This document shows positions 55,846 through 60,777 of a stretch of 64,000 bases of DNA, in pieces. Within the stretch, counting starts at the first letter, position 1. Every line of letters begins with the position of its first letter. The stretch spans positions 4,253,560 through 4,317,559 of the forward strand of contig NZ_CP020042.1 of assembly GCF_002028425.1 (NCBI RefSeq), in the 5' to 3' direction. This DNA is from Streptomyces katrae (GTDB lineage Bacteria; Actinomycetota; Actinomycetes; Streptomycetales; Streptomycetaceae). The position numbers and the translations under genes were made by a program. The notes below the pieces were generated by a model, which was not told the DNA's origin, did not search any database, and saw only the letters and a list, made by a program, of their open reading frames with translations.

Positions 55846-56000
55846 GGCGGGCCGGACCGGGCCGGGGCCCCTGCCGTTCACTACCGGGTTCTGGCGCGGG
55901 ATCGGGTGCGGGATCGGGCGCGGGTTCCGGCGCGGGACAGGGCTGGATCGTGGCTGGAGGGTCTGGGCGGGGTCCCGGCCGCCCCGGTAGGGTCGTGGCC

Positions 56001-56855
56001 ATGGGGAGCCATCCGCACCAACCGCCGATGCCCGTGCCCGCCACCGCCGCCGGACGCGAGGGACTCGAAGCCCTCCTCCGTACACCCCGCAGAGCCGTCA
56101 TCGCCCTCGACTTCGACGGCACCCTCGCCGACATCGTCCCCGACCCCGACCAGGCCCGCGCCCACGCCGACGCCGTGCCGGCGCTCGCCGCACTCGCCCC
56201 TCGGGTGGAGGCCGTGGCCGTGGTCACCGGCCGGCCCGCGGGGGTGGCCGTCCGCTACGGAGGCTTCGCCGGGGTGCCCGGGCTGGAGCACCTGGTCGTC
56301 CTCGGCCACTACGGCGCCGAACGCTGGGACGCCGTCACCGGCGTCGTGCACGCCCCCGCCGAACACCCCGGCGTGGCGGCGGTACGGGCCGAGCTGCCCG
56401 GCTTCCTCGACGCCATCGGGGCGTGGCGGGGGACCTGGATCGAGGAGAAGGGCCAGGCCCTGGCCGTCCACACCCGCCGGGCGGAAGACCCCGAGGCGGC
56501 GTTCCAGGCCCTGCGCGAACCCCTCGCGGAGCTCGCGGCCCGCCACGGCCTGATCGTCGAGCCGGGGCGCGCCGTCCTGGAACTGCGCCCGCCGGGGATG
56601 GACAAGGGCGTCGCCCTGACCGAGTTCCTTCAGGAGCGGGACGCGGGGCCGGTCCTGTACGCGGGGGACGACCTGGGCGACCTCGCGGCGTACTCGGCGG
56701 TCGAGAAGCGCCGGGCGGAAGGCCTCCCGGGCCTCCTGGTGTGCAGCGGCTCGGCGGAAGTCCCGGAACTCGCGGCCCGCGCCGACCTCGTCCTCCCGGG
56801 CCCGGCCGCGGTAGCGGCGTTCCTGGCCCAGCTGGCGGGGGCGCTGAGGGGGTAG
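56001..56855 (+). CDS. otsB: Trehalose-6-phosphate phosphatase
   Basis: This HAD-superfamily enzyme removes phosphate from trehalose-6-phosphate. The 284-residue protein has motif I in ALDFDGTLADIVPDPDQA, motif II in VVTGRP, LGHYGAERWD, and motif III/IV in YAGDDLGDLAAY. The start at ATG 56001 gives MGSHPHQPPMPV. Its stop lies only eight bases from the left arm of the large inverted repeat, beyond which the convergent otsA lies. Confidence 0.92.
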   Translation: MGSHPHQPPMPVPATAAGREGLEALLRTPRRAVIALDFDGTLADIVPDPDQARAHADAVPALAALAPRVEAVAVVTGRPAGVAVRYGGFAGVPGLEHLVVLGHYGAERWDAVTGVVHAPAEHPGVAAVRAELPGFLDAIGAWRGTWIEEKGQALAVHTRRAEDPEAAFQALREPLAELAARHGLIVEPGRAVLELRPPGMDKGVALTEFLQERDAGPVLYAGDDLGDLAAYSAVEKRRAEGLPGLLVCSGSAEVPELAARADLVLPGPAAVAAFLAQLAGALRG

Positions 56856-56862
56856 GCCTCGG

Positions 56863-57293
56863 GGCCCGGGCCCGCCATCTCCCCCTCGAGGGGCCGGGGC
56901 CGGGCGGGTGTTTGCCCACCCGCCTCCCCGGATGCGGGTGAGTGGGTTGGCGGCGGTCTCCCGCCGGGCGGGAGCGAGCCGCTGAACGGTACCGGTGACC
57001 GTCGGGGTCCGAGCCGGCCGGTCTCAGAGATGCCTTGGGGCTTTCCCGTCAGTCCCACTGTCCTTCCGGTTCGGGCCGCCCTGTCAAGGGCGCTCCCTTC
57101 GGTCGCGTCGCTTCGCGATCGCCTACGGCGACCCTTGACAGCCCGTCCCGCCCCGGAAAGACAAGGACTGCCGGGAAACCCCCAAAAGGACGGCACGGTC
57201 GTACCTTGACCATCCGGCTCCCTCAGCGACCAGCCGGGGGGCCGGGGGCCGCCTCGCCGAGCATCCGGGCCGACGAGGCAGTGCCTCGGGGCC
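56863..57293. repeat. Left arm of a large inverted repeat
   Basis: This arm of 431 bp is complementary to 58851-59276. It is strongest over 57023-57293, where long exact blocks occur (for example GGGGCTTTCCCGTCAGTCCC and CGCCTCGCCGAGCATCCGGG). The outer 150 bp are less similar but clearly related (GCCCGCCATCTCCCCCTCGA). Within the arm CTGTCAAGGG (57081) and CCCTTGACAG (57132) form a nested hairpin. Confidence 0.9.
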
Positions 57294-57300
57294 TCTCTCC

Positions 57301-57660
57301 GCGACAGATCGCTACGCGCTCCTCCCGTTTCAGCGTCCGCCGCCCGCCTGTGCCCGCTGCCCGCACCAAAAGCCGACGGAAGCGGCGTCCGGGGCCAGTG
57401 GGCGCGACAAATCGCTACGCGCTCCTCTGATTTCGGCGTCCGGCGACCGCCTGGGGCTGGTACCCGCACCGGATGCCGACGGAATCGGCATCCGAAGCCG
57501 CCAAGCGCACCAGATCGCTACGCGCTTCTCTCTTGTCGGCGTCCGGCGGCCGCCATGGGCTGATACCTGCACCAAATGACGACCGGAGGAGCATCCGGGC
57601 CGTCGGGCGCGGCAGATCGCTACGCGCTCCTCATATCTCAGCGTCCGCGGCCCGTGGGGG
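57301..57660. repeat. Tandem repeats of about 103 bp, four units (left array)
   Basis: The motif AGATCGCTACGCGCTCCTC with variants recurs with its ATCGCTACGC core at 57308, 57411, 57514 and 57616, a spacing of 103, 103 and 102 bases. Each unit continues with a TCGGCGTCCGG-like block, a CCCGCACC-like block and GACGGAATCGGCATCCG or a variant. It fills the space between the left arm and the enclosed gene. Confidence 0.88.
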
Positions 57661-57690
57661 GCCCGACGGGGGATGCCTTAGTGTTCGGCC

Positions 57691-58428
57691 ATGTCCATGC
57701 CGTCTTCCTCGGATGCCGCGGTTCCCTCGGGGTCCGTGGATCAGTCTCGTTCGAACAGCACGCAGACAGAGCCGCACACCCAGAGCGGCCCCGGCGGCCG
57801 CCGGACCGGGAGGGTGATCGGGATCGTCGCCGTCTCGGTTGCCGGGCTCCTGCTCGCGGGCTTCGGGGTGCGCCAACTCGCCTCCAGCGGGCTCCCCGAC
57901 GCCACCCACCGGCTCACGCTGCCCGAGACCGTGGGCGACGGCACCTACGAGCTGTCCAAGGACCTGTCGCAGACCGAGAGAGCCGACGCGCTCGGCCGCG
58001 CGCTCTCCGCCGGTTCGCGCACCCCCCAGGCGGTCATCGCCCAGTACGCGAGCGTGTCCTCGGAAGCACCGAGTGTCCTTGCCCTTTCCGGGGCGTACGG
58101 GCAGTTCGCCAACCCCGCGAAGATCCGCCAGAGCATGATGGACGGTGGCGCGCGCGCAGCGAACGCCACCGCGACGGTGGTCCAGCCGGAGGACATCACC
58201 CCGGCCGGCTCCGACACGACCGTGACCTGCCAAGCCGTCAAGATTCTCAGCACGACGGCCGTCTGGACCGTTCAGCCCATGTGCGCATGGGCGGACGGGA
58301 ACACGGTGGCCCTGGTGACGGTGCTCACCGCGGAAACTCCGGAGCCGACCCCGGAGAACGTCGACCTCGGCCGTCTCGCCGCCCTGACGGTCAAGGTGCG
58401 GACGGAGGCCCGTCAACCGATCGGCTGA
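57691..58428 (+). CDS. Membrane-anchored hypothetical protein enclosed by the inverted repeat
   Basis: The 245-residue protein starts MSMPSSSDAAVPSGSVDQSR. It has a Ser/Thr/Gly-rich cytoplasmic part (about 1-42), one membrane helix (about 43-62, IGIVAVSVAGLLLAGFGVRQL) and an outer domain with two cysteines (VTCQAVKIL, QPMCAWADGN). The outer part (THRLTLPETVGDGTYELSKD, then DTTVTCQAV and WADGNTVALVTVL) resembles a group of Streptomyces surface proteins, but no function is known to me. The gene lies between two arrays of 103-bp repeats. Confidence 0.8.
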   Translation: MSMPSSSDAAVPSGSVDQSRSNSTQTEPHTQSGPGGRRTGRVIGIVAVSVAGLLLAGFGVRQLASSGLPDATHRLTLPETVGDGTYELSKDLSQTERADALGRALSAGSRTPQAVIAQYASVSSEAPSVLALSGAYGQFANPAKIRQSMMDGGARAANATATVVQPEDITPAGSDTTVTCQAVKILSTTAVWTVQPMCAWADGNTVALVTVLTAETPEPTPENVDLGRLAALTVKVRTEARQPIG

Positions 58429-58461
58429 CGACCATCCGGCCGGTCCGTCGAGTTGGCTCGG

Positions 58462-58626
58462 GTGGTGCGGGCGAACGTTTCCGACACCGGAGCCGGGTAC
58501 TGGATGGAACTGGCATACATCCGTGCCGCGTCCGGCCGGGAGTTCACCACGGCCGTCGCCCACGTCCAGCCCGCCTATGACCAGCCCAAGACGGCCGCCG
58601 GACGCCGAGACCTGGGCAGCGCGTAG
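58462..58626 (+). CDS. Short ORF after the enclosed gene, possible gene fragment
   Basis: In the same frame as the enclosed gene, after its stop, the sequence reads VVRANVSDTGAGYWMELAYI, then RAASGREFTTAVAHVQPAYD, and ends at a TAG inside the first right-hand repeat unit. It has good codon usage and a natural protein look, but no clear ribosome site (GTG 58462 and ATG 58504 are possible starts). It may be the end of a lost gene. The family is not recognised. Confidence 0.4.
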   Translation: MVRANVSDTGAGYWMELAYIRAASGREFTTAVAHVQPAYDQPKTAAGRRDLGSA

Positions 58627-58850
58627 CGATCTGTCGCGCCCGGCGGTCCCGAATGCCCCTCCGGTCGTCATTTGGTGCGGGTACCAGCCCAGGGCGGTCG
58701 TCGGACGCCGAAATCAGAGGAGCACGTAGCGATCTGTCGCGCCTCCCGGCCCCGGATGCCGATTCCGTCGTCCTTTCCTGCGGGCAGCGGCCCCGGACGG
58801 GCTGCGGACGCTGAGAAATGAGGAGCGCGTAGCGATCTGTCGCGGGCGGC
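58600..58850. repeat. Tandem repeats of about 103 bp, three inverted units (right array)
   Basis: The complementary motif GCGTAGCGATCTGTCGCG with variants has its core ending at 58630, 58733 and 58836, an exact period of 103 bp. The units are inverted relative to the left array and share its blocks, for example CATTTGGTGCGGGTACCAGC against its counterparts on the left. Confidence 0.88.
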
Positions 58851-59276
58851 GGCCCCGAGGCACTGCCTCGTCGGCCCGGATGCTCGGCGAGGCGGCCCCC
58901 GGCCCCCCGCCTGGTCGCTGAGGGAGCCGGATGTCTCAGGTACGACCGTGCCGTCCTTTTGGGGGTTTCCCGGCAGTCCTTGTCTTTCCGGGGCGGGTCG
59001 TGCTGTCAAGGGTCGCCGCAGGCGATCGCGAAGCGACGCGACGAAGGAGCGCCCTTGACAGGGCGGCCCGGACCGGAAGGACAGTGGGACTGACGGGAAA
59101 GCCCCAACCCTTCTCTGAGACCGCCGAGTGAGGTCCCGCCCCCACCGGTACCGGCCGGCTGCCCGCTCCCGTCCAGCGGGGCCCCGCCCCCCACCCACCG
59201 TCCCGCACCCGGGGAGGCGGGTGGGCAAGCGCCGCCCGGCCCCCACCCCTCGAGGGGGAGATGGCGGGCGCGGGCC
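58851..59276. repeat. Right arm of the large inverted repeat
   Basis: This 426-bp arm is complementary to 56863-57293. It contains the same nested CTGTCAAGGG (59003) and CCCTTGACAG (59052) hairpin. Its outer end is 41 bp from the otsA stop. Confidence 0.9.
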
Positions 59277-59316
59277 GTGAGCCGTGCGGGTGGGGCCCGG
59301 GGGAGTGCGACGGGCG

Positions 59317-60777
59317 TCAGCCCCCCAACGCCTCCAGCTGGGTCGTGAACCATGCCGCCGGGGGGAGGGACGTGGCGGCTGCTGCCAGGCGTTTCGTGCG
59401 TTCCGTGCGTTCCGCCTCCGGCATCGTCAGGGCCGCGTGCAGGGCTTCGGCCGTCGCCGTGACGTCGTACGGGTTGACCGTCAGGGCGTCCTGGCGGAGT
59501 TCCTCGTACGCCCCCGCCCCCGTCGACAGGACCAGGACGCAGCCCGCCTCCGAGACCACCGGGATCTCCTTGGCGACCAGGTTCATGCCGTCCCGCACCG
59601 GGTTGATCAGGGCCACGTCCGCCATCCGGTACGCCGCCAGGGAGCGGGCGAAGTCGTCCTGGACGGAGAGCAGCACCGGCTCCCAGTCCTCCGTCCCGAA
59701 CTCGGCGTTGATCTCCGCCGCCAGGGACGCGACCGCCGCCGTGTAGTTCCGGTAGACCTCCAGGTCCTGGCGGGAGGGGTAGGCGGAGGCCAGGTGGACG
59801 ACGCGGCCCCGCCACTCGGGGTGGGCGGTCAGCAGCTCCCGGTAGGCGAGGAGCCCGCGCAGGACGTTCTTCGACAGCTCGGTGCGGTCCACCCGGACGA
59901 TCGTCTTGCGGTCCCCGACCTCCGCGCGCAGCGCGGCCAGCTTGTCGTCGACCTCCGGCCGGTGGGCCAGGGCCCTCAGGTCGTCGCCGTCGACGCCGAG
60001 CGGGTACTGGCCGACGCCGGTGAAGCGCATCTCCCCGAACAGGCCCTCCTCCGTCAGCCTGCGGTGGTGCACCCCGCCCTGGTGCCCCTCGCGGGGGACG
60101 AAGCCCTCCGCGACGCCGTGCACGTCGTCCATGGTGGCTCCGCTGATGAACGCGGCGGCCCATCCGGCGGTGTGGAAGCCGAGCTGGTCGGCGCCGAGCA
60201 TGCCCCACACCAGCCGGCTGCGGATGTCGTCCGGGAGCATGTGCAGGACGTCCGGCGAGGCCCACGGGGTGTGCGTGAAGTGCGCGATCCGCAGGTCGGG
60301 GCGCAGCTCCCGGAGCGCTCCCGGGACCAGGGCCAGGTGGTAGTCCTGGACGAGGACGCGGGCGCCCTCGGCGGCCTCCTCGGCCAGGGCTTCGGCGAAG
60401 GCCTGGTTGTAGGCGGTGTACGAGTCCCAGCGCCGCCGGAACTCCGCGTCGAAGACGGGCTCGCGGGGGACGTCGTAGAGGTGGTGGTGGGTGAACCAGA
60501 GCACCGAGTTCGCGATGCCGTTGTACGCGTCGTCGTACACCGCGCGGTCGATGTCCAGCATGCGCACGCCGTGCTCGGAGACCCCCCGCCGGACCGCTTC
60601 GCGGTCGGCCTCGGAGAGGGCGGCGCAGATCCACAGGGCCTCCGGCTGCGCCGCGAGGGCCGCGGACAGGCCGGAGACGAGACCGCCCCCGCCGCGCCGG
60701 GCGCTGAGGGCGCCGTCGGCGGCGAGGGCGTACGAGAGCGGGCCGCGGTTGGCGGCGACGAGTACCTGAGAAGCCAT
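59317..60777 (-). CDS. otsA: Trehalose-6-phosphate synthase
   Basis: This GT20 enzyme joins UDP- or GDP-glucose and glucose-6-phosphate. The 486-residue protein has RGPLSY, the GGGGLVSGL phosphate loop, VQDYHLALVPG, HTPWASPDVLHMLP, the binding motif RVDRTELSKN and NPVRDGMNLVAKE. Between AAFISGATMDDV and VGQYPLGVD is an insertion longer than in E. coli OtsA (about 45 residues), as I recall for actinobacterial forms. It converges on otsB across the inverted-repeat structure. Start ATG 60777 (MASQVLVAANRG). Confidence 0.95.
   Translation of the reverse strand: MASQVLVAANRGPLSYALAADGALSARRGGGGLVSGLSAALAAQPEALWICAALSEADREAVRRGVSEHGVRMLDIDRAVYDDAYNGIANSVLWFTHHHLYDVPREPVFDAEFRRRWDSYTAYNQAFAEALAEEAAEGARVLVQDYHLALVPGALRELRPDLRIAHFTHTPWASPDVLHMLPDDIRSRLVWGMLGADQLGFHTAGWAAAFISGATMDDVHGVAEGFVPREGHQGGVHHRRLTEEGLFGEMRFTGVGQYPLGVDGDDLRALAHRPEVDDKLAALRAEVGDRKTIVRVDRTELSKNVLRGLLAYRELLTAHPEWRGRVVHLASAYPSRQDLEVYRNYTAAVASLAAEINAEFGTEDWEPVLLSVQDDFARSLAAYRMADVALINPVRDGMNLVAKEIPVVSEAGCVLVLSTGAGAYEELRQDALTVNPYDVTATAEALHAALTMPEAERTERTKRLAAAATSLPPAAWFTTQLEALGG

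Follow-up and report, generated by a model that had tools for sequence, protein, structure and literature searches.

Between the convergent genes otsB and otsA of Streptomyces katrae, two long inverted arms enclose a gene, and the question they raise is whether the structure is a mobile element, a source of structured RNA or something else. The initial annotation of the DNA analyzed here (a 64,000-nt stretch, the window) had described arms complementary over about 430 bp. Local alignment places 56863–57562 against the reverse complement of 59276–58582 with a score of 901, compared to 22 to 32 for 20 shuffled sequences; the alignment is continuous and far above the shuffles, rather than a scatter of short matches. 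Two inverted arms are therefore present (89% identity over the 431-bp left arm), but the length given for them was too short: because the inverted similarity runs on from the arms into tandem units, the mirrored stretch is about 700 bp long. An assembly artefact is unlikely, since members of the same family turn up at many sites and in numerous genomes.

The left flank is otsB (trehalose-phosphatase, 56028–56855, plus strand; PF02358 on the ORF 55950–56855, start from a codon-usage caller) and the right flank is otsA (glycosyltransferase family 20, 59317–60777, minus strand; PF00982), both with their 3′ ends towards the element. The arms end, as first read, 8 positions past the otsB stop (56855) and 41 before the otsA stop (59317). 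The left arm (56863–57293, plus strand), delimited by its similarity to the right arm and by an outer-end consensus, consists of an outer part (GGGCCCGCCATC...TGCCCACCCGCCTC), a hairpin of about 150 bp with a conserved apex (57038–57186, plus strand; −91.6 kcal/mol) and an inner part. The right arm (58851–59276, minus strand) holds its own hairpin at 58958–59104 (minus strand; −86.8 kcal/mol). Both hairpins are matched by a covariance model, and the left one is also a row of our hairpin alignment. The tandem arrays noticed at the outset were recovered inside the arms by unit mapping and TRF, which gives a period of 103 on both sides: four 103-bp units with the motif AGATCGCTACGCGCTCCTC on the left (57300–57654, plus strand; starts 57300, 57403, 57511 and 57608) and three inverted units on the right (58589–58844, minus strand; starts 58589, 58645 and 58748).

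The enclosed part had been read as one membrane-anchored gene and a short ORF. The gene stands as a single ORF of 245 aa (57691–58428, plus strand), with no Pfam match; by eye, a single hydrophobic stretch is visible close to the N-terminus. The short ORF (58453–58626, plus strand) is a remnant of another, older cargo gene of a small-ORF family, 72% identical to residues 28–84 of the L031 small ORF; it enters the innermost right unit and stops at a TAG inside it. The 245-aa protein has 94 homologues, nearly all from Streptomyces where the source is named, the nearest being 64% identical when one near-identical entry is set aside. None of the 57 otsB loci examined in relatives encodes a match to it; 12 of these loci stop short of otsA.

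Every arm holds one hairpin of about 150 bp, and this hairpin, rather than a cruciform of the whole element, is the best conserved feature. RNA folding energies average −94.1 kcal/mol across 177 hairpins, which represent 171 distinct contexts. Swapping the 3′ side of a stem with that of a dissimilar copy destabilised the fold in 141 of 150 trials (mean −78.2 versus −97.1 kcal/mol for native), and shuffled stem sides gave −67.3 versus −91.7 kcal/mol for native (40 trials). Subtypes such as AAGAGCG/CTCTTGA (L033, L039 and L040) differ on both sides of the stem with pairing preserved. RNAalifold on the whole hairpin alignment returned 24 pairs only, with a covariation term near zero; the consensus is weak because the stems of distant subtypes fail to align, and the swap test was used instead. 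The apex is almost invariant in the alignment, partly as a selection effect, since the hairpins were picked by their apex pattern. A structured-RNA or single-stranded-DNA role for the hairpins is possible, and the combination of a conserved apex with a variable but paired stem makes them a candidate unrecognised protein or RNA recognition structure.

The element belongs to a family. Within its own genome, the left arm has at least 72 matches, itself included (40 of 180 candidates scored), and the left units have at least 56 (40 of 110 candidates scored). We extracted 27 stretches of this genome for mapping of arms and units and found a common plan of arm, units, centre, inverted units and inverted arm. 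The unit arrays almost touch in L039, L048, L050, L051 and L055, while one to three genes lie between them in the others. A covariance model built from 29 hairpins (20 base pairs) gave 102 matches in the window genome, 51 of which we read as antisense matches of the same palindromes. The 51 hairpin places, on contigs C1 and C2, form 20 inward-facing pairs (plus, then minus) and 11 singles (150 of 12,473 candidates scored), and every pair of hairpins less than 4.5 kb apart in this genome faces inward. We call such a pair of arms a socket. Two copies at C1:4497385–4515535 (L045 and L046), about 15 kb apart, form a divergent subfamily with arms up to 97% alike and with differing cargo, SDR and MerR versus VOC and DUF4097. 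At L036 (3873–3964 and 4005–5255; C1:2467000–2476000), a lone 103-bp unit without a hairpin lies beside a GntR gene and a small ORF; this place is possibly the donor locus of GntR/small-ORF cargo, or a decayed socket.

Beyond this genome, the arm search (E ≤ 0.001) detected the family in 23 of 61 genomes of the genus, in 12 of them at values weaker than 1e-10. The hairpin model (E ≤ 1e-4, with 10 candidates per genome scored) detected it in 45 of 293 genomes from the order. Of the 45 carriers, 44 are in the window's genus and one is in another genus of the same family. The exact apex pattern occurs in 107 stretches of GTDB contigs, of which 80 were listed, 79 under Streptomyces titles and the other as 'Actinobacteria bacterium OV450'. 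Four of 72,556 plasmid records carry it, all four from Streptomyces. In a linear plasmid of Streptomyces sp. NBC_00158 (NZ_CP108163.1, L271), an aminotransferase gene is followed by one arm and its units, with a GNAT gene adjoining the units; no second arm lies within the piece read. A phage origin was rejected, with no exact apex match in viral contigs and no blastn match in phage records. The sockets are centred on the Streptomyces group around S. lavendulae and S. virginiae. No description of the hairpin-arm family was found in the open-access literature searched, which most subscription papers lie outside. We regard the family as real, widespread across one part of the genus and apparently undescribed in that literature.

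We compared the otsB–otsA gap across relatives and found that the element is absent from many and that its interior differs where it is present. Among 57 otsB loci (some genomes represented twice), otsA is also present in 45: 35 of these have gaps of at most 320 bp without the apex, seven have longer gaps without it, and the three rows with the apex come from two genomes, G189 and G458. In the next-closest relative by otsB (G038), the gap holds genes for a 240-aa unknown protein and a TetR regulator (L127:3890–5329), and nothing in it matches the arm. The gaps of two further relatives are filled by unrelated GC-rich repeats (L077:2319–2798 and L082:2319–3613), with apparently a further reading frame in L082.

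Two other sites were followed in the same way. At the L053 site, the apex is absent from all 23 relatives, 20 of which have both flanking genes at gaps of 18 to 719 bp. Consequently, an extra insertion step, beyond homologous recombination alone, must exist behind new sockets, unless the socket was lost in all relatives. Of 25 relatives compared at the L047 site, 12 have facing flanks 0 to 639 bp apart and no apex, three have the apex, and ten lack the second flanking gene in the piece. GntR matches lie downstream of the same gene, with no apex in 1.5 kb, in G054, G039, G560 and G285, and also in G325 (53%); the unit motif is there in three of the first four and absent in G054. Since GntR matches occur at these apex-less sites, part of the cargo may consist of genes already resident, with sockets forming around them or being lost from them.

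Grouping the elements by the homology of their flanking genes (identity of 55% or more), we found that at least some sockets occupy the same chromosomal site in several species. Between otsB and otsA, three interiors were found: the 245-aa gene with the small-ORF remnant in the window; the C-terminal 94 residues of a GntR protein in L126 of G189, the closest relative found, where the right arm is cut to its outer part; and, in L277 of G458, a gene 83% identical to a PIN-like gene that lies elsewhere, in S. lavendulae (L187), and is called on a Pfam PIN score of 21.8 bits, under the 23.6 cut-off. Different cassettes also lie between the same conserved genes in other groups that contain a pair, or more than one, with both flanks matching: a two-domain VOC protein in L047 versus a small ORF and GntR in L205 and no called cargo in L197, and an unknown protein in L042 versus NUDIX in L176. 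The interiors differ likewise in the group L187/L191/L273, and L276/L288 is a further group with such a pair.

Seven of the ten G189 loci examined share a site with the window genome by at least one flank (the window element with L126, and L035–L175, L042–L176, L047–L205, L041–L286, L034–L287 and L292–L288), a paralogous neighbour being possible at several shared sites that were matched by one flank only. In none of the seven is the same intact called cargo present on both sides. L035 and L175 have a small ORF in common, and the small ORF just outside the arm in L041 lies inside in L286. Downstream of an ftsW-type gene, GntR and a small ORF are oppositely oriented in G054 and G189 (L298 versus L296), as if the segment had been inverted. 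The same cargo also occurs at different sites: the GntR proteins of L205 and L126, from one species, are 95% identical over 94 residues, and the NUDIX proteins of L216, L288 and L040 are 85–92% identical. By Pfam, the cargo families include NUDIX, VOC, SDR with MerR, AKR with TetR, MarR, GNAT, HAD, CYTH, CutA1, GntR, GDSL and DJ-1/PfpI. Comparison of these loci provides good evidence that interiors turn over at standing sites.

Further analysis of the copies shows that some are mosaics. L041 and L044 have 1042 bp in common at 96.5%, ending at the innermost right unit within the element, and their right halves come from different sources, matching L043 (97%) and L039 (94%). Arm identity within genomes is 0.848 in the window genome (G000), calculated from all 51 arms without selection bias, and 0.894 and 0.890 in G189 and G458, where the values are inflated because the loci came from top-scoring or exact-pattern matches. 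Between genomes it is 0.814, 0.799 and 0.829, and the unbiased margin is modest (0.848 versus 0.814 and 0.799). Arms at shared sites in two species are 0.74–0.89 identical (11 locus pairs), like arbitrary between-genome pairs. The two arms of one element are mutual best matches in only 2 of 20 elements in the window genome and 1 of 7 in S. lavendulae. Arms within an element versus across elements are 0.798 versus 0.748 identical in the window genome and 0.717 versus 0.726 in S. lavendulae; in some copies elsewhere the two arms are 93–95% alike. Half-elements exist, two of them in G540 being 96% alike at two sites, and halves could move by themselves.

We propose that these elements act as cassette sockets scattered through the genome, and that homologous recombination swaps both their cargo and their halves, a reading to which we give slightly better than even odds (about 0.55). 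In this model the two arms of a socket are inverted relative to each other, and each contributes a long hairpin and tandem units that point inwards; between them lies either almost nothing or a cargo of one to three small genes. Sockets would swap the enclosed cargo, and whole half-elements, by homologous recombination or gene conversion, and incoming DNA carrying a socket would provide a further exchange partner. The likeness of arms within one genome points to homologous recombination as the route of exchange between sockets. Taken with the mosaic copies, it would place the recombination in the arms and not in the flanking genes. The family, its inward pairing, the sites empty in relatives, the shared sites with differing interiors, the recurrence of cargo at different sites, the mosaics and the arm likeness emerge from comparison of loci and genomes; RecA-type recombination we infer as the agent of exchange.

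Alternatively, the elements could be non-autonomous transposons that have long terminal inverted repeats and depend for movement on a transposase gene elsewhere, with hairpins and units as binding sites and with internal deletions and captures giving varied cargo. The initial annotation had included a non-autonomous mobile element among its suggestions, and this part of it gains from the dispersed copies, the sites empty in many relatives and the differing interiors, although the shared sites and the mosaics fit exchange at least equally well. Inverted arms with repeated inner units and the two nearly alike G540 half-elements would also be expected of a transposon, as would the small number of copies in divergent gaps. 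With three doubly represented loci removed and genes taken from a simple codon-usage caller rather than curated annotation, the outer neighbour gene presents its 3′ end to the hairpin in 119 cases and its 5′ end in 52, and is absent from the piece in five; the sockets mostly adjoin gene 3′ ends. Pairs with both neighbours (n = 56) lie in 23 convergent, 28 tandem and 5 divergent gaps, compared to 99, 307 and 135 among 541 background gaps, so that divergent gaps are scarce.

The search for an enzyme and for insertion footprints weighs against a transposon. Inspection of 30 arm ends by eye revealed no target duplication; both ends were listed for eight elements only, this one included, and degraded duplications are possible because the arm ends are fuzzy and GC-rich. 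The early observation that no transposase or integrase is visible holds more widely, as none recurs in the Pfam scan of cargo genes and their neighbours. The sole transposase in that scan, a DDE_5 protein beside a GDSL lipase gene inside a G189 socket (L287:3507–4757), matches none of the other loci searched and was taken as a passing insertion sequence. The Y1 transposase PF01797 has no match in the window genome (control positive in 5 of 14), which led us to reject a REPIN/RAYT system. Together with arms that are seldom each other's closest relatives and sites common to several species, these results make a transposon doubtful.

In a second alternative, the 103-bp unit would be a recombination site at which cargo enters and leaves at a set position through a site-specific recombinase, as in an integron. 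Unrelated cargo genes do end at or near the same unit position: 16 of 38 outward cargo 3′ ends lie within 53 bp of the unit motif, seven of them inside it, and the median distance is 70 bp for these 3′ ends versus 271.5 bp for 24 outward 5′ ends (one locus, L134/L208, being counted twice). The junction TGACCAGCCC is found with a DUF4097 protein, a VOC protein and a GNAT protein. However, the distance from cargo to unit varies from 37 to over 100 bp, and the seven closest cases are not independent, since all belong to the small-ORF and NUDIX families. Selection could also give compact 3′ ends, and no integrase or other recombinase gene was found among the Pfam-scanned cargo and neighbour proteins. 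We consider this explanation improbable.

It is likewise very unlikely that the hairpins are a structural RNA or terminator/insulator family at gene 3′ ends, with pairs and cargo as by-products of recombination: the swap test and the excess of neighbouring 3′ ends would fit, but inward pairing and tandem units are left unexplained, Rfam has no family match up to E = 1 within 56000–60000, and a gene-end bias is expected of any tolerated insertion.

The proposed sockets resemble several known systems in part. REPINs, with their RAYT transposases, are dispersed units of two inverted hairpins, and our 20 inward pairs recall them; the hairpins here are, by contrast, about 150 bp long, stand 0.5–4 kb apart and can hold genes, and the genome has no Y1 transposase. 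Eukaryotic foldback elements have long inverted arms, inner tandem subrepeats and a variable loop, all of which are found here. Unlike them, our elements are bacterial, and the two arms of a copy are, by the counts given above, rarely closest relatives; a foldback-style coupling of the arms is thus mostly absent. Integrons turn over gene cassettes in one array by means of an integrase. As in integrons, small genes of stress, regulator and toxin-antitoxin type turn over here and repeats lie near cargo 3′ ends, but the sockets are dispersed single sites and have no integrase among the scanned genes. Mobile insertion cassettes and bacterial MITEs have inverted repeats, no transposase of their own and an optional passenger gene. 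In these respects our elements are alike, whereas their arms are hundreds of base pairs long with a hairpin and tandem units, with no target duplication by eye and no parent insertion sequence among the scanned genes. The consulted passages of a review of such elements make no mention of Streptomyces (PMC10969869). The minimal mobile elements of Neisseria (Saunders & Snyder 2002), as presented in passages of a later source (PMC3898611), are whole-gene cassettes that differ between strains, lie between two conserved genes and have their exchange attributed to homologous recombination. Judged from those passages, the likeness lies in the different cassettes between the same two conserved genes, and the difference in the paired inverted repeats common to about 20 sites and in the occurrence of the same cargo at different sites.

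A broader form of the socket reading, which we hold tentatively, is that the dispersed paired arms at gene ends serve as homology pads through which cassettes would move among about 20 addresses, and between species, without a transposase or integrase. If true, the family would be a distributed, enzyme-free counterpart of the integron. It would explain the turnover of small stress, regulator and toxin-antitoxin genes at fixed places of the Streptomyces chromosome, and would offer a natural system for testing exchange through dispersed inverted repeats.
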